Source: an uncultured Actinomycetes bacterium (lineage in GTDB: Bacteria; Actinomycetota; Actinomycetes; Nanopelagicales; Nanopelagicaceae). From it: 33,153 nucleotides of DNA. Positions 7,504 to 19,549 of this stretch are shown here, piece after piece. The notes beneath the pieces were generated by a model, which was not told the DNA's origin, ran no database searches, and was given only the letters and a program-made list of their open reading frames with translations. The translations under genes were made by a program, and so were the position numbers. Where the stretch lies: NCBI GenBank assembly GCA_903894425.1, contig CAITQC010000015.1:1-33153 (forward strand). Direction: 5' to 3'. Position 1 is the first letter of the stretch. Every line of letters begins with the position of its first letter.

Positions 7504-9954
7504 GGTACGGAGTACGGCTCCGCACTTTGTGGCTGCAACTGATGTCGCCGCCTCGCGCATGGCAGAGACCTCATCACCAGTAAGCGTTCGATCGGGGGCC
7601 CGGAATACAAGAGAGAAAGCTAGAGAGATCTTGCCATCGCCGATCTTGTCGTAGCGATCAAAGAGAGTGATTGACTCAAGCAAGGCCCCTGCCCCTTCGC
7701 GTAGTGCAGCTTCAACATCATGTGCAGAAACATCTGCATTAACTATTAATGCAACATCTTGTAATGCAGCTGGCATGGTTCCAACGGTAGTTGGACGTAC
7801 CAACGCGGATTCGGCGAGTGCGCTCAACCCAACGGCAAAGGCAACACTTCGTTCGGGTAATCCATATTTAGCGATGATTCGTGGGTGAAGTTCACCAGCA
7901 TGGGCCACGGCCTTGCCATTGACAATTAATTCAGCGCAACGACCGGGATGCCAAGGAGCAAAGTCAGAGCGCTTGATGCTCCATTCAAGATTGCAGAGGG
8001 CAAGAATGTCGTGCGCATACTCAATGGCATCATGCCATGTGTATGCACGGGCTTTTCCTTGCCAGTTTTCATTCTCAATCTTTCCTACGAGCAAGCCCGC
8101 TACGTGATAAGCCTGTGGTGGTACAGAGACAAAGATTTGATCGATAATCTTTTGATCCGGTCGCTTTGAAAGATCTGGAGAAATGGCAGGAACTAATTTC
8201 TGAGAACTTCGAAAGATTGAACCCATCTCAAAGATTGCGAAATCTTTTGCTCCACGGCTGATATTGCGCTGGGCAACTTCAATCAAACCTGGAACCAAAT
8301 GCACCCGCATAAGTGGAAACTCTTCAGACATTGGATTGGCGATTGTGTATGTAGCTGCACGTTCGCCGAGGAAACCCATGGAATCGATAGTCTCTTGGTT
8401 GGTAAATGGGAATGTTTGAACTTCAGCTAAACCTCGACTTGCCAACATTGTGGCAACTGCTCTGCGACGCTTTTGTGTAGGAGTTAAAGATGCGTGCAGT
8501 GGACGGGGCGGCAAGATAGATGGAATCTTGTCGTATCCAAGCATGCGGGCTACTTCTTCAGTGAAATCTGCTGCGGTCAGTAAATCAGAGCGCCATGATG
8601 GAGGATCAATGGCCCAAGTTTTTTCATCTACGTCACAACCAATGAGACGAAGAATGCGAGCAACTTCTGAACTGGATACATCAAAGCCAAGAATTTTAGA
8701 GATGTAGGTTGGATCGATCGTTACAACAGGGGCGTAAACAGGCTCTCCTGCAACAACCGTTGCCACATGTTGGGCTGAACTATTTTCAGTAAGCAATTGA
8801 ACAAAACGTGCTGATGCGAACTGAGCTAGTGATGGATCAACACTGCGCTCGAGACGACGAGATGCTTCAGATGAAAGTTTATGGCGACGTGAATTTTTTG
8901 CGATACAGATAGGTTCGAATCGAACTGCTTCAAGGGCGATATCTGTTGTGCTTGCAGTAATTTCAGAGGAGAGCCCGCCCATTGTTCCGGCAAGTGCTAA
9001 TGGCGCTTCATCGTCACAGACCATCAAATCATCTGGATCTAATTGACGAATTTGGCCATCTAAAGTTGTAAATGGCTGCGCTTTTTCTGCGCGCTTAACT
9101 GTTAAGCCACCCCTAATTTTAGATTTATCAAATGCATGAAGCGGCTGGCCCAGTTCCAGCATTACATAGTTTGTAACATCGACAACGAGTGAAATCGAGC
9201 GCATCCCCATTTTCTCGATACGTCGACGCATCCATAAAGGCGTTGTGGCCTTTGGATCAAAGTTTGAGAGTGTGCGAAGGTAGAAGACCGATGCCGTAGA
9301 GGAATCGGCGATACGGGCGCTAACGCCTTGACCCGTTTCTTTAAACTCTAAATTTCTAAGCGCATCTACAGGATCTGTAAATTTCAATCCAAGTGATCCC
9401 GCGACTTCACGTGCGATTCCGCGGATACTAAGTGCATAACCACGATCAGGATTAACAGCTACATCAAAGACAACATCGTTAATTTGTAATCCTTGGATGG
9501 CATCATCACCGATTTTTGCATCTGCTTCGGAAAAGACCATGATGCCCGCATGTTCATCGCTAATACCAAGTTCGCGGGCAGAGCAAATCATTCCATTGGA
9601 TACCTTGCCATAAGTTTCACGGGCACTAATTGCAAAATTACCAGGAAGAACAGCCCCTGGAAGTGCCGCGACAATGAGATCTCCTACTGCAAAATTAGTC
9701 GCACCACAGATGACATAACGTATTTCCTTTTCACCGCAATCAAGTCCAACATAGCGAATTGGTTTCTTGTGTTCGGTGAGCTCTTCAATTGAGAGAACCT
9801 TCGCAAACTTCAGTGGGCCAGTTAAATCTGAGCCCTGGTAGATGATTTCTTCTACTTCAAAGCCGACTCGGATTAATCCATCAGAGATTTGATCGGCAGT
9901 AATAGTTGTAGGGATATCTACAAACTCTTTAATCCACGATAACGGAGCGCGCAT
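7498..9954 (-). CDS. pheT: Phenylalanyl-tRNA synthetase beta subunit
   Basis: 818 aa with tRNA-binding, B3/B4, B5 and FDX-ACB-like regions; adjacent to pheS. Confidence 0.97.
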   Translation of the reverse strand: MRAPLSWIKEFVDIPTTITADQISDGLIRVGFEVEEIIYQGSDLTGPLKFAKVLSIEELTEHKKPIRYVGLDCGEKEIRYVICGATNFAVGDLIVAALPGAVLPGNFAISARETYGKVSNGMICSARELGISDEHAGIMVFSEADAKIGDDAIQGLQINDVVFDVAVNPDRGYALSIRGIAREVAGSLGLKFTDPVDALRNLEFKETGQGVSARIADSSTASVFYLRTLSNFDPKATTPLWMRRRIEKMGMRSISLVVDVTNYVMLELGQPLHAFDKSKIRGGLTVKRAEKAQPFTTLDGQIRQLDPDDLMVCDDEAPLALAGTMGGLSSEITASTTDIALEAVRFEPICIAKNSRRHKLSSEASRRLERSVDPSLAQFASARFVQLLTENSSAQHVATVVAGEPVYAPVVTIDPTYISKILGFDVSSSEVARILRLIGCDVDEKTWAIDPPSWRSDLLTAADFTEEVARMLGYDKIPSILPPRPLHASLTPTQKRRRAVATMLASRGLAEVQTFPFTNQETIDSMGFLGERAATYTIANPMSEEFPLMRVHLVPGLIEVAQRNISRGAKDFAIFEMGSIFRSSQKLVPAISPDLSKRPDQKIIDQIFVSVPPQAYHVAGLLVGKIENENWQGKARAYTWHDAIEYAHDILALCNLEWSIKRSDFAPWHPGRCAELIVNGKAVAHAGELHPRIIAKYGLPERSVAFAVGLSALAESALVRPTTVGTMPAALQDVALIVNADVSAHDVEAALREGAGALLESITLFDRYDKIGDGKISLAFSLVFRAPDRTLTGDEVSAMREAATSVAATKCGAVLRTA

Positions 9955-10961
9955 TAGAGCCCGACTCCAAACTGACGTGTGAAACGAAGATCGCCTTCAA
10001 CGATGTCATGCATATCTGTTATGCCATGGCGAACCATTAACGTACGTTCGAGTCCCATTCCAAAAGCAAAACCGCTGTACACATCGGTATCGATGCCGCA
10101 CGTTGCCAATACCTTTGGATTAACCATTCCACAACCGCCCCACTCAATCCAGCGATTGTTAAAGAAAATATCTACTTCAGCACTTGGCTCGGTGAAAGGG
10201 AAAAATGAAGGACGTAGACGAGTGGTTACATCCGGACCAAACATATGGCGGGCAAAGTTATCCAGGGTGCCCTTGAGATGGGCCATAGTGATGCCCTTAT
10301 CAATTACCAATCCCTCCACTTGATGAAAGACCGGACTATGTGTTGCATCTAGTTCATCTGCTCTGAAAGTTCGACCTGGACAGATTACATAGATAGGTGG
10401 AGTTTGAGACAACATCGTGCGAATCTGCACGGGTGAAGTGTGCGTACGGAGCACCATCCCTGATTCAACTGGTTCGATAAAGAAAGTATCTTGCATCGTG
10501 CGAGCTGGGTGATCGGCAGGGATGTTGAGTGCATCAAAGTTAAGCCAACCAGATTCTAATTCGGGGCCTTCTTCAACACTGTAACCCTGTTCGATAAAGA
10601 AATCAGAGACTTCATTTTTAATAATCGAAATCGGATGTAACCCGCCGCGATGTCTGCGATTAACGGGAAGTGTTATATCGACAACTTCTTCTAGAAGAAC
10701 TTTCATATCGCGTTCGGCCTCAAGCTTTGCAGTAGCTTGCGCTAAAGCTTGGGCAATTGCTGCCTTTGCATCACCAATGATTTTGCCGAAACTTGCTTTT
10801 TCCTCTGGTGAGAGTGCACCTAGACCACGTGATGCTAAAGAGATTGGAGCTTTGTCCCCTGTATGTGCCAAGCGGGCGATTTTCAGGGAATCTAAATCCG
10901 TAGCCGCGCTCAAAGCTAGTTGGGCATCTTTAACCCATTGCAAGACATCTTCTTGGCGCAT
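9954..10961 (-). CDS. pheS: Phenylalanyl-tRNA synthetase alpha subunit
   Basis: 335 aa; HPISIIKNEV, GFAFGMGLERTLMVRHGI. Confidence 0.97.
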   Translation of the reverse strand: MRQEDVLQWVKDAQLALSAATDLDSLKIARLAHTGDKAPISLASRGLGALSPEEKASFGKIIGDAKAAIAQALAQATAKLEAERDMKVLLEEVVDITLPVNRRHRGGLHPISIIKNEVSDFFIEQGYSVEEGPELESGWLNFDALNIPADHPARTMQDTFFIEPVESGMVLRTHTSPVQIRTMLSQTPPIYVICPGRTFRADELDATHSPVFHQVEGLVIDKGITMAHLKGTLDNFARHMFGPDVTTRLRPSFFPFTEPSAEVDIFFNNRWIEWGGCGMVNPKVLATCGIDTDVYSGFAFGMGLERTLMVRHGITDMHDIVEGDLRFTRQFGVGL

Positions 10962-10986: not shown

Positions 10987-11769
10987 TTAGGAAGATGGGA
11001 TATTTGCTAGGTGATACATAACAATGGTCGCTGCCGATGAGAGATTAAGGCTTTCGGCATTTCCGGGCATAGCGATTTTGACTTGTTCGATGGCGCCAGT
11101 GTCTTGCCCTGTTGCTAATCCCCTAGCTTCATTTCCAAAAATCGCCACGCAGTCATTCGTGACTTTTAATTGCGACAAAGTAGTACTTCCGCCAGCGCCA
11201 AGGGTGAAGGCTTGAACGCCTAATGTGAGAACAGTAGAGAGTTCGACATCCTCAAATACCGGAATATGCCATAAGGATCCCGCAGTACTGCGAACAACCT
11301 TTGGGGAGAATAGATCGACGCTGCCAGGAGATGTAATTACTGCATCGATACCAAAGGCATCGGCTGAACGAATTATTGTTCCCGCATTTCCAGGATCTTG
11401 AATTTCAGAAAGATAGATAAATTTGCGATGACCATTGAGTGTGATGGAATCAAAGCTCTGTTTAGGTGTAGAACAGATCGCGAGAATTCCCTGTGGCGTA
11501 ATTGTCTCTGACATGGCTTTCATAACTTCGTCAGTTACATCCACAATACTGAGTGAATCTAAGTTAGCTAACGGTTCAACTTTACTTCGTCCGGATGCGG
11601 TTAAATAAAGAGTTTCGATGCGCGGACCATCTTTTGCCACCAAAGCTTCGCGGACACACTGTATTCCTTCTGCAACAAAAACACCTGCAGCTTTTCTTTC
11701 CTTTGTACCCCGAGAACCAATAAGAGCCTTAACTCGCGCTATATGTGGCGAGTTAAGGCTCTCAATCAT
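10987..11769 (-). CDS. TrmH/SpoU-family rRNA 2'-O-methyltransferase
   Basis: 260 aa; LSEIQDPGNAGTIIRSADAFG, IFGNEARGL, MPGNAESLNLSSAATIVMY; between rplT and pheS. Confidence 0.93.
   Translation of the reverse strand: MIESLNSPHIARVKALIGSRGTKERKAAGVFVAEGIQCVREALVAKDGPRIETLYLTASGRSKVEPLANLDSLSIVDVTDEVMKAMSETITPQGILAICSTPKQSFDSITLNGHRKFIYLSEIQDPGNAGTIIRSADAFGIDAVITSPGSVDLFSPKVVRSTAGSLWHIPVFEDVELSTVLTLGVQAFTLGAGGSTTLSQLKVTNDCVAIFGNEARGLATGQDTGAIEQVKIAMPGNAESLNLSSAATIVMYHLANIPSS
11723..11762. repeat. Perfect 15-bp inverted repeat with 10-nt loop
   Basis: AGAGCCTTAACTCGC (11723-11737), gctatatgtg, GCGAGTTAAGGCTCT (11748-11762). Confidence 0.97.
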
Positions 11770-11778
11770 TGGAATTTA

Positions 11779-12138
11779 TTAAGCTGAAACGAGGCTCTTG
11801 CGAGCAACATCAACAAGTGTCTTAAATGTTTCGGGATCATTTGTTGCTAGCTCTGAAAGAACACGACGATCAACTTCGACTCCAGCAGCTTTTAGGCCCT
11901 GGATGAAACGGTTGTATGTAAGACCATGTGCTCGGCACCCAGCGTTAATGCGCTGAATCCAAAGACGACGGAAATCGCCTTTCTTATCTTTACGGTCATT
12001 GAAGGCATAAACCATTGAGTGCGTAACTTGTTCCTTCGCCTTTGTGAAAAGACGTGAACGTTGTCCGCGGTAACCGCTGGCGCGTTCTAAAGTTGTGCGA
12101 CGCTTCTTAGCGGCATGTACTCCACGTTTTACTCTCAT
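11779..12138 (-). CDS. rplT: 50S ribosomal protein L20
   Basis: 119 aa; [31 protein letters not shown]. Confidence 0.98.
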
Positions 12139-12152
12139 TTAATTCACGCTCC

Positions 12153-12350
12153 TTACTTCAAACCAAGCATGCGCTTGGCTGTCATAGTTACGGTTGGCTT
12201 TGCAGACTTCTCAGTTGAGAGACGGCGGGTGACTCGTGAAGATTTGTGCTCGAGTAAGTGGCGCTTGCCAGCACGCTCGTGCATAACCTTTCCAGTACCT
12301 GTAATGCGGAAGGTCTTCTTCGCACCACTATGTGTTTTCATCTTTGGCAT
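12153..12350 (-). CDS. rpmI: 50S ribosomal protein L35
   Basis: 65 aa; [22 protein letters not shown]. Confidence 0.98.
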
Positions 12351-15672: not shown

Positions 15673-17523
15673 ATCCTGACGGTTATAAAGATCTGCATAT
15701 AGACCACCCAGAGCAACAAGTTCATCATGCTTGCCGCGCTCGACGATTGACCCTTTTTCAAGAACAAGAATCTGGTCGGCATCTCGAACAGTACTTAGTC
15801 GATGTGCAATAACAATGCTGGTACGCCCCTTTAGGGCGCTTTGCAATGCCGCTTGTACCAATGCTTCATTTTCAGAATCCAAATGTGCAGTTGCTTCATC
15901 CAAAATTACTACGGCGGGAGATTTGAGCAGAAGTCTTGCAATTGCAAGGCGTTGTTTTTCTCCACCGGATAAACGATGGCCTCGCTCACCCACCATCGTG
16001 TCTAGACCATTAGGCAGGCTTTCAATCAACTTCCAAATCTGCGCCGATTCACAGGCCTGTCGCATCTGATCTTCTGTTGCATCATTTTTGGCATATCGGA
16101 GATTTTCTGCAATCGTTTCGTGGAACAAATGCGCATCCTGCATCACTACGCCAATTGCCCCGCGCAAAGATTCAAGAGTCAGATCACGGATATCGTGGCC
16201 ATCAATTTCAATTGCTCCTGTTGTAACATCGTAAAGTCGCGGAAGTAGGGCACTGATAGTTGTCTTACCAGCCCCTGATGGACCAACTAATGCCGTTAAA
16301 GTTCCAGGCGCTGCGCTAAAAGATAGATTTCGAAGTACTTCCCCACTTTGAATTGTTTCTGGTTTAGCGGCTGATTCAAGAGATGCTAATGAAATCTCTT
16401 CTGCACGTGGGTAGGAAAAACTAACGTCCTTAAACTCAATAGTTGGGTGTGTAGTTTTAAGTTCGATGGCATTTAGGCGATTCTTAACCATAGGTTCAAG
16501 ATCGAGTACTTCAAAAACGCGTTCAAATGAAACAAGTGAAGTCATAACATCGATGCGCACATTTGAAAGGGCGGTGAGAGGACCATAGAGACGAGCTAAA
16601 AGGGCGGTGATAGCCAATAGGGTTCCAACGCTTACTCCCCCGCTAATCGCTAAATGTCCCCCAATGCCATATGCGAACGCAGTTGCAATGGCAGCAACAC
16701 TTGTAAGTGCAATAAAGAAGAGCCGATTGAGCATCGCCATTTTGATACCGATATCAGCAACCTTGCGTGCGCGAGATCTAAAGTATTCGCGCTCTCGCGA
16801 AGGCTGACCGTATAAAGCTACCAACATCGCACCTGAAACATTAAAACGTTCAGTCATCGTGCTCGACATTTCGGCGTTGGTATTGAAAGAGTCACGGGTT
16901 AGTTCTTGAAGCTTTCGTCCTACCCATTTAGTAGGAATCAAGAACATTGGTAAAAGCATCAGTGAAAAAATCGTGATCTGCCAAGATAAAATCATCATGG
17001 TCACGCCTACTAAAACAAGGCTTACAACATTGCTTACGACGCCAGATAAAGTAGCCGTGAATGCCTGCTGTGCACCCATAACATCAGAATTGATTCGCGA
17101 AATAAGCGCACCGGTTTGCGTGCGGGTGAAGAAAGCTATGGACTGTTTTTGAACATGTCCAAAGACTAATGAGCGAAGGTCATAAATAAGACCTTCGCCT
17201 ATTCGTGACGAGTAATAACGGCCGAGCATGCTCATTCCTGCATCTGCCACTGCAAGCAATCCCACAAAGAGTGCCAAACGAGTTACAAGGGCACCGTCTT
17301 TAGGAATTACGCCCTCATCGATAAGTTGACGCAATAAAAGCGGAGTCGCGATAACTAAAACGGCGTCGATCACAACAGTTACAAGGAATATCCAAATACT
17401 GGCCCGATATGGTTGAGCAAAAGCAAAGATCCGCTTGACTGTGCCGGGCTTTAACTTCTGTTGTTTTACCGATGGATCTGCCGTCATAGAACGGTGAGTC
17501 ATCCAAGCCGCATGCATTGACAT
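15652..17523 (-). CDS. ABC transporter, fused permease/ATPase (exporter type)
   Basis: 623 aa; six-TM domain, Walker A GPSGAGKTT, signature LSGGEKQRLAIARLL, Walker B VVILDEATAHLD. Confidence 0.95.
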   Translation of the reverse strand: MSMHAAWMTHRSMTADPSVKQQKLKPGTVKRIFAFAQPYRASIWIFLVTVVIDAVLVIATPLLLRQLIDEGVIPKDGALVTRLALFVGLLAVADAGMSMLGRYYSSRIGEGLIYDLRSLVFGHVQKQSIAFFTRTQTGALISRINSDVMGAQQAFTATLSGVVSNVVSLVLVGVTMMILSWQITIFSLMLLPMFLIPTKWVGRKLQELTRDSFNTNAEMSSTMTERFNVSGAMLVALYGQPSREREYFRSRARKVADIGIKMAMLNRLFFIALTSVAAIATAFAYGIGGHLAISGGVSVGTLLAITALLARLYGPLTALSNVRIDVMTSLVSFERVFEVLDLEPMVKNRLNAIELKTTHPTIEFKDVSFSYPRAEEISLASLESAAKPETIQSGEVLRNLSFSAAPGTLTALVGPSGAGKTTISALLPRLYDVTTGAIEIDGHDIRDLTLESLRGAIGVVMQDAHLFHETIAENLRYAKNDATEDQMRQACESAQIWKLIESLPNGLDTMVGERGHRLSGGEKQRLAIARLLLKSPAVVILDEATAHLDSENEALVQAALQSALKGRTSIVIAHRLSTVRDADQILVLEKGSIVERGKHDELVALGGLYADLYNRQDLTGATN

Positions 17524-18299: not shown

Positions 18300-19549
18300 T
18301 AGAACCTCCCGAAGTATTTCTGTGCGCCTACAACTGCTTCAACCAACGCATCAACATCATGTTCGTCATTATAAAGATAGAAAGAAGCGCGGGTAGTCGC
18401 CGGGACATTCATGCACTTAGCAAGCGGCCAAGCGCAGTGATGTCCAGTCCGGACTGCAACACCTTGGCTATCGACAAACTGACCAACATCGTGGGGGTGG
18501 ATATCTTGGATGGTGAAAGCGATGGTTGCGCCTCGGGATTCATTGCTTTGCGGGCCAATTATTTTGATACCTGGTATCGCAAGCATTTTCTTCAATGCAT
18601 AGTTAGTCAGGGAAATTTCATGTTTACGAATGGCATCCATACCAATTGCAGAGAGATAGTTGAAGGCCGCACCTAGCCCGACAGCCTGAGCCATGTTGGG
18701 GACACCCGCTTCAAATTTTTGAGGGACCTGCGCCCATGTTGCATCAGTCATTGTCACACTCGTCACCATTGAGCCACCTGTTAGAAATGGTGGAAGTTCA
18801 TCTAGTAACTGCGCTTTACCCCAGAGAACACCGACTCCAGTTGGTCCAACTGCTTTGTGTCCAGAAAATGCTAGAAAATCAACGCCAAGTTCTTGGACAT
18901 CAACTTTCATATGAGGAACAGATTGGCAAGCATCGAGAACCACTACAGCGCCAACTTCATGTGCTCGTCTAGCTATCGCCTCCAATGGATTGATAGTTCC
19001 AAGAACATTTGATTGATGCGTGATCGCAACAATCTTGGTACTGCTGGTGATGATTTGATCGATATTAGAAAGATCTAAACGAGAATCCTCAGTAACTTTA
19101 AACCACGAAAGCTGGGCGCCCGTGCGCTTAGCTAACTGCTGCCAAGGAATCAAGTTGGCGTGGTGCTCCATCTCAGTTACAACGATTGAATCTGCACTTG
19201 TTAAGGCAAAACGATTTCCCGCTTCGGCATTGCCCATAGCGTAGGCAAGAAGGTTGATGGATTCGGTAGCGCTCTTAGTGAAGATAATTTCATTTTCATC
19301 TGCGCCAATGAATTCGGCGACGATTGCACGCGCACCTTCATACGCATCTGTGGCTTCCTCGGCTAATTGATGCGCGCCACGGTGAACTGCAGCGTTATGT
19401 TTTGAGTAAAAATCGCTCTCAGCATTGATAACAGCCCAAGGCTTTTGTGCAGTAGCACCACTATCTAAATAGACCAATCTTTTACCGTCACGGATAGTAC
19501 GTTCAAAGATTGGAAAATCTTTACGTATATCCGTGACAGAAAAGCCCAT
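18299..19549 (-). CDS. sufS: Cysteine desulfurase SufS
   Basis: 416 aa class V; VYLDSGATAQKP, FSGHKAVGPTGVGVLWG, RTGHHCAWPL. Confidence 0.96.
   Translation of the reverse strand: MGFSVTDIRKDFPIFERTIRDGKRLVYLDSGATAQKPWAVINAESDFYSKHNAAVHRGAHQLAEEATDAYEGARAIVAEFIGADENEIIFTKSATESINLLAYAMGNAEAGNRFALTSADSIVVTEMEHHANLIPWQQLAKRTGAQLSWFKVTEDSRLDLSNIDQIITSSTKIVAITHQSNVLGTINPLEAIARRAHEVGAVVVLDACQSVPHMKVDVQELGVDFLAFSGHKAVGPTGVGVLWGKAQLLDELPPFLTGGSMVTSVTMTDATWAQVPQKFEAGVPNMAQAVGLGAAFNYLSAIGMDAIRKHEISLTNYALKKMLAIPGIKIIGPQSNESRGATIAFTIQDIHPHDVGQFVDSQGVAVRTGHHCAWPLAKCMNVPATTRASFYLYNDEHDVDALVEAVVGAQKYFGRF

Follow-up and report, generated by a model that had tools for sequence, protein, structure and literature searches.

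Why should a perfect inverted repeat lie within the first codons of an RNA methylase gene, directly behind the gene of a ribosomal protein? The question was raised by the window, which is the whole stretch of 33,153 nt analysed here. The gene order on its minus strand is infC, rpmI, rplT, a SpoU-family methylase gene, pheS and pheT, where the names infC, rpmI, pheS and pheT were assigned from sequence and gene order. The methylase ATG stands 9 nt past the rplT stop. Near relatives are freshwater actinobacteria, among them Candidatus Planktophila and Actinobacteria bacterium IMCC19121, from which the order is taken to be Nanopelagicales (acI). RNase III and Rho are both encoded. The comparisons described below indicate that the hairpin formed by the repeat is probably a transcript-boundary signal written into protein-coding sequence. 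A literature search returned nothing on the rplT-methylase junction in actinobacteria.

The inverted repeat and its predicted fold

The preliminary description reported a perfect 15-bp repeat with a 10-nt loop, lying wholly in coding sequence and starting about 7 nt after the ATG. The inverted-repeat scan and the ORF position confirmed this. Two arms of 15 nt, 100% complementary and separated by a 10-nt spacer, occupy codons 3-16 of the methylase ORF, and the 5' arm begins at ORF base 8 (Table 1). At spacings up to 100 nt, the window has no other perfect inverted repeat as long as the one at 11723-11762. About 0.0006 such repeats are expected by chance (33 kb x 18 loop sizes x 4^-15), in agreement with the earlier estimate that a random match in 33 kb was very unlikely, and its pairing also exceeds that obtained by synonymous recoding. 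The T-rich stretch claimed behind the 3' arm is present as well, with 5 T of 8 in an interrupted run. The RNA folding that had been suggested was performed on 11800-11690 and gave a strong structure of -37.3 kcal/mol, with a z value of -4.4 against shuffles. The stable G+C-rich stem-loop of an intrinsic terminator is thus found here, the arm having 53% G+C.

The Rfam scan of the window gave no family at its gathering score, the L20 leader model included. The promoter/terminator scan left 11723-11762 unflagged, since it accepts loops of at most 8 nt. Within 400 kb from the complete chromosome of a close relative (G015), the orthologous repeat comes second in length among perfect inverted repeats. 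First is an intergenic 16-bp hairpin with a TTTTATTAG tail (L197, about 18429-18469; G015:C1:938429), which looks like a typical terminator. Elsewhere in the window, an inverted repeat of 20 nt with 80% complementarity and a 2-nt spacer lies at 17165-17206 within an ABC-transporter-like gene.

Table 1. Genes and hairpin elements at the rplT-methylase junction, in window coordinates.
Feature	Position	Strand	Remark
rpmI (L35)	12153..12350	-	upstream in the operon; 3' junction used as control
rplT (ribosomal protein L20)	11779..12138	-	upstream gene; the hairpin sits behind its 3' side
SpoU/TrmH-family RNA methylase (SpoU-type rRNA methylase)	10987..11769	-	hairpin in its first codons
pheS	9954..10961	-	ORF and gene order; named from sequence and the known operon order; downstream of methylase
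5' arm of mRNA hairpin, AGAGCCTTAACTCGC	11748..11762	-	approximately methylase codons E3-P8
Loop, 10 nt	11738..11747	-	one or two extra pairs form here in some relatives
3' arm of mRNA hairpin, GCGAGTTAAGGCTCT	11723..11737	-	approximately methylase codons A11-L16
U-rich tail, CTTATTGGTTCT	11713..11724	-	overlaps the final two stem bases; in the family, synonymous sites enriched in T
Lower-stem strand CCAAT (candidate)	11768..11772	-	takes in A and U of AUG; suggestive only
Lower-stem partner ATTGG (candidate)	11717..11721	-	could pair with CCAAT at 11768-11772; suggestive only

Maintenance of pairing in the family

In the first 30 loci examined, all from the genus of the window, the hairpin occupies identical codons. 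A pattern search allowing up to three mismatches found it once per genome in 39 of 39 sampled members of the genus (source included) and matched 7 of the 17 genera of the family. When the methylase start was read in the remaining genera, diverged versions of the hairpin were seen in most. In genus g29 (L093 and L094) the hairpin differs in sequence and its register is shifted, with a z value of -4.8 in L093, the sole member folded. Three other loci of the family (L114, L115 and L124) have weak stems. In genus g40 (L121, L122 and L125), a second small upstream hairpin is predicted over the methylase start codon.

As a baseline for the pairing, the same peptides were rewritten in synonymous codons drawn at local usage. 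Over 109 distinct sequences of the family, a set that takes in L093 and L094 though their hairpin register differs, a mean of 14.18 of the 15 core pairs form, against 7.89 after recoding. G-T pairs in the stem number 88 and A-C only 8, and the mRNA strand is therefore the structured one. Unpaired arm substitutions in close relatives had been named as the result that would speak against the structure, and the outcome favoured it. Across 44 diverse sequences, 91.8% of the cells are paired, a level reached by none of 500 shuffles, and at most 51% are paired in the slid-structure controls. Taken from these sequence comparisons, the stem is selected as an mRNA structure in the family, beyond chance.

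The compensatory codon changes to be looked for by alignment were found at two pairs. At pair 6/29, 57 sequences have C-G and 49 have A-T; one side changes Asn to His, and the other is a silent change in Val. At pair 11/24, 80 have G-C and 10 have T-A, and both sides are silent (Ser and Arg). On the tree, the two pairs show 4-6 changes per side, coordinated between the sides in most of the supported comparisons; a sign test on the supported branches had too few double changes at the two pairs for significance. State changes at pairs 8/27 and 9/26 numbered 24 and 20, respectively, and were chiefly between Watson-Crick and G-U. Codon choice within the arms is unusual. The Ser at positions 9-11 is encoded by TCG, which makes up 7% of the Ser codons in the genes of the relative G015, in 85 of 109 sequences. 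The Arg at 24-26 is nearly always CGA, CGG, AGA or AGG, codons used for 32% of Arg in that relative's genes.

Structure behind rplT across the class Actinomycetes

A covariance model of the family hairpin was run over 247 genomes of the class. It matched 22 family genomes, in each at a single place and the antisense copy of that place, and gave no convincing member outside the family. A single weak place was seen in a genome of another family of the class, where the model had a lone 35-bit match (G451:C1:5045833-5045870). A first inspection of 20 class relatives likewise disclosed no obvious shared motif at the junction. Folding and synonymous recoding of class relatives, in contrast to these sequence searches, revealed strong hairpins of unrelated sequence at the same junction. 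Neither the hairpin sequence nor the loop is kept outside the order.

Whole loci of 3-4 kb from 52 class genomes outside the family were then scanned in 50-nt windows. The structure maximum of the locus lay 0-140 nt after the rplT stop, a zone that is about 4% of a locus, in 26 of the 52 genomes, and this zone reached the top 1% in 37 of 52; because some of them share a genus or family, these 52 are not independent cases. As controls, the maximum fell after rpmI in 0 of 51 loci and after the methylase in 5 of 50. High G+C favours hairpins generally, a concern that the within-locus ranking and the rpmI control answer in part. The scan was designed after the first class folds had been seen, and is a follow-up on an enlarged set rather than a blind trial. 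The relatives of G044 and G056 are mostly represented by one genome per genus. The signal was weaker in other classes of the phylum (5 of 20).

The position of the structure depends on the gap between the genes. With an rplT-methylase gap of at least 70 nt, 13 of 18 genomes had the locus maximum inside the gap, and in that case the methylase start was usually unremarkable. With a gap below 60 nt, 13 of 37 had the maximum within the methylase start (median rank 7). In one locus (L320), 1022 nt separate rplT from the methylase, yet rplT is still followed by a long intergenic hairpin. We read the gap pattern and this locus together as a hairpin that goes with the end of rplT and is taken up by the following gene where space is lacking. 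This ties the structure to the end of rplT across the class, as judged from predicted folds, from which the class stem ends were taken; the start codons were placed partly by homology. All five genomes of genus g55 (L297-L301) have a long perfect stem with a 4-nt loop, GCCGCCGCTCGGT-GCGC-ACCGAGCGGCGGC, in methylase codons of about 15-27, which is further downstream than in the family of the window. Two class loci (L237 and L317) have no special structure at the junction.

A transcript boundary and its rivals

With about even confidence, we take the hairpin to be the 3'-boundary element of the infC-rpmI-rplT mRNA, either an attenuator or a transcript-end hairpin, embedded in the next gene. Such an element would fall within the following gene since almost no space separates these tightly packed genes. 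While RNA polymerase moves out of rplT, the stem would fold some 15-40 nt past the rplT stop. Together with the modest U-rich tail, it would halt some polymerases, and on the ended transcripts it would block 3' exonucleases. The remaining polymerases would read through, and the hairpin would be opened by translating ribosomes. The outcome would be more ribosomal-protein mRNA than methylase-pheST mRNA, with pheS as a possible receiver of the read-through transcription. Partial termination, 3' protection and the resulting step in expression are what we infer from the stem and its position, and a partial terminator combined with a 3'-end barrier is favoured, with processing next. The preliminary description had proposed an in-gene attenuator or processing site between infC-rpmI-rplT and methylase-pheST. 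This proposal is partly supported: a dividing element at this point would be consistent with the stem kept by compensatory changes and with a class hairpin that tracks rplT with or without the methylase start, while the U-run is weak.

The tail deserves a closer look. In the family it is T-enriched at synonymous sites (6.25 vs 4.7 of 12), the strongest enrichment among the tested gene segments, with Gly as GGT in 77 of 81 and Ser as TCT in 73 of 96; part of this may serve the lower stem described below. The U-run is missing in genera g33 and g36, class tails are mildly T-rich (0.216 vs 0.143), and other terminator-like hairpins in G015 bear T runs. Such a tail suits a weak terminator, though the run is interrupted, and in some genera missing. 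Like a Rho-independent terminator, the element is a stable stem-loop shortly behind a stop codon with a U-enriched tail in the family. Unlike one, it has no continuous U-run and is embedded in the coding sequence of the next gene, and read-through is therefore required. Of the transcript ends mapped in Streptomyces avermitilis, only about 25% carried a U-rich motif (PMC8780764). Since actinobacterial ends often have little U, the weak tail is compatible with termination; that study, however, covers ends generally, and the rplT-methylase junction was not found in it.

If the boundary reading holds, this junction offers a clear and testable case of an operon-internal RNA boundary within protein codons, held by compensatory and mostly silent changes. 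It suggests that a hairpin absent from RNA family databases sets ribosomal-protein genes and synthetase genes to different levels within a single operon, and that this holds across actinobacteria, with mycobacteria and streptomycetes probably among them. It also warns that codon choice at a gene start in a packed genome may serve the upstream gene.

Endonuclease processing is an unlikely but reasonable alternative. RNase III or another nuclease would cut the duplex and free a stable rplT mRNA from a short-lived methylase-pheST part, without termination. An RNase III gene scored above the cut-off in 6 of 6 genomes tested, and the core helices in the class have a median of 24 pairs, about two turns, mostly without U-runs. 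The family stem, however, has only 15-17 continuous pairs, which is short for a classical RNase III site, and a cut at the hairpin would destroy the methylase start. The E. coli rplT-pheM-pheST junction carries a terminator attenuator, which speaks for the boundary reading, and RNase III cuts at it, which speaks for processing (PMC5371410). The likeness is that a hairpin lies between rplT and pheST, the E. coli one being able to end transcription and being cleaved by the nuclease. The E. coli element consists of the Phe-rich leader peptide pheM and intergenic RNA, whereas here the hairpin is inside the methylase gene. A pheM-type leader with Phe codons over the stems was not found, as MIESLNSPHIARVKALIGSRG contains no Phe and the ORF is the methylase itself.

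Translational control is a weaker rival than the boundary reading and seems decidedly unlikely as the main function. The stem and a lower stem covering the start would block fresh initiation, and the methylase would be translated only by ribosomes finishing rplT. The rplT stop in most cases either overlaps the methylase start or lies within about 35 nt of it, which fits this, and no clear Shine-Dalgarno sequence was seen by eye before the methylase in the genus of the window. In G015, the methylase start ranks third for structure among 407 predicted starts, two short ORFs being ahead of it. Many members of the genus show a lower stem that takes in the start codon, and its strands pair better with their own partner than with permuted ones (-6.26 vs -5.76, p 0.0012, in a permutation that ignores phylogeny). 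An added translational effect in the family is possible because of this excess, phylogeny being uncorrected, and so the earlier idea of a switch hiding the methylase start gains limited support. The start-to-stem distance, on the other hand, varies from about 5 to 20 nt between genera, and in class genomes with a gap the hairpin is usually away from the methylase start, 1 kb away in L320.

A broader proposal is a class-old dual-coding regulatory RNA, that is, a boundary hairpin kept behind rplT that shifted between intergenic space and methylase codons as the gap opened and closed, and that in some lineages answers a signal such as the level of L20 or of the methylase. In this full form it is doubtful. 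A plain ligand switch, with L20 or the methylase binding the hairpin and feeding back on the operon, appears very unlikely. The arm sequences are nearly constant across the family, and L20 controls the infC operon of Bacillus subtilis by transcription attenuation according to work cited in PMC3997798. Both cases would involve a structured RNA regulating the same ribosomal-protein genes, but L20 binds a 5' leader there, while the present hairpin is behind rplT and has no Rfam match in the window. A single binding site also looks unlikely because sequence and loop vary outside the order.

It is hardly credible that the repeat is a side effect of constraint on the protein or its codons, or a palindrome recognised in the DNA by a binding protein: the conserved peptide SPHxxRVKAL fixes some bases, but pairing drops by almost half when the peptides are recoded synonymously, and a DNA palindrome does not predict the kept wobble pairs and rare A-C mismatches. 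As a minor observation on the methylase itself, the alignment of three relatives (L082, L083 and L084, from G132, G087 and G144) to the window protein crosses an in-frame TAA, and their C-terminus is probably shorter.
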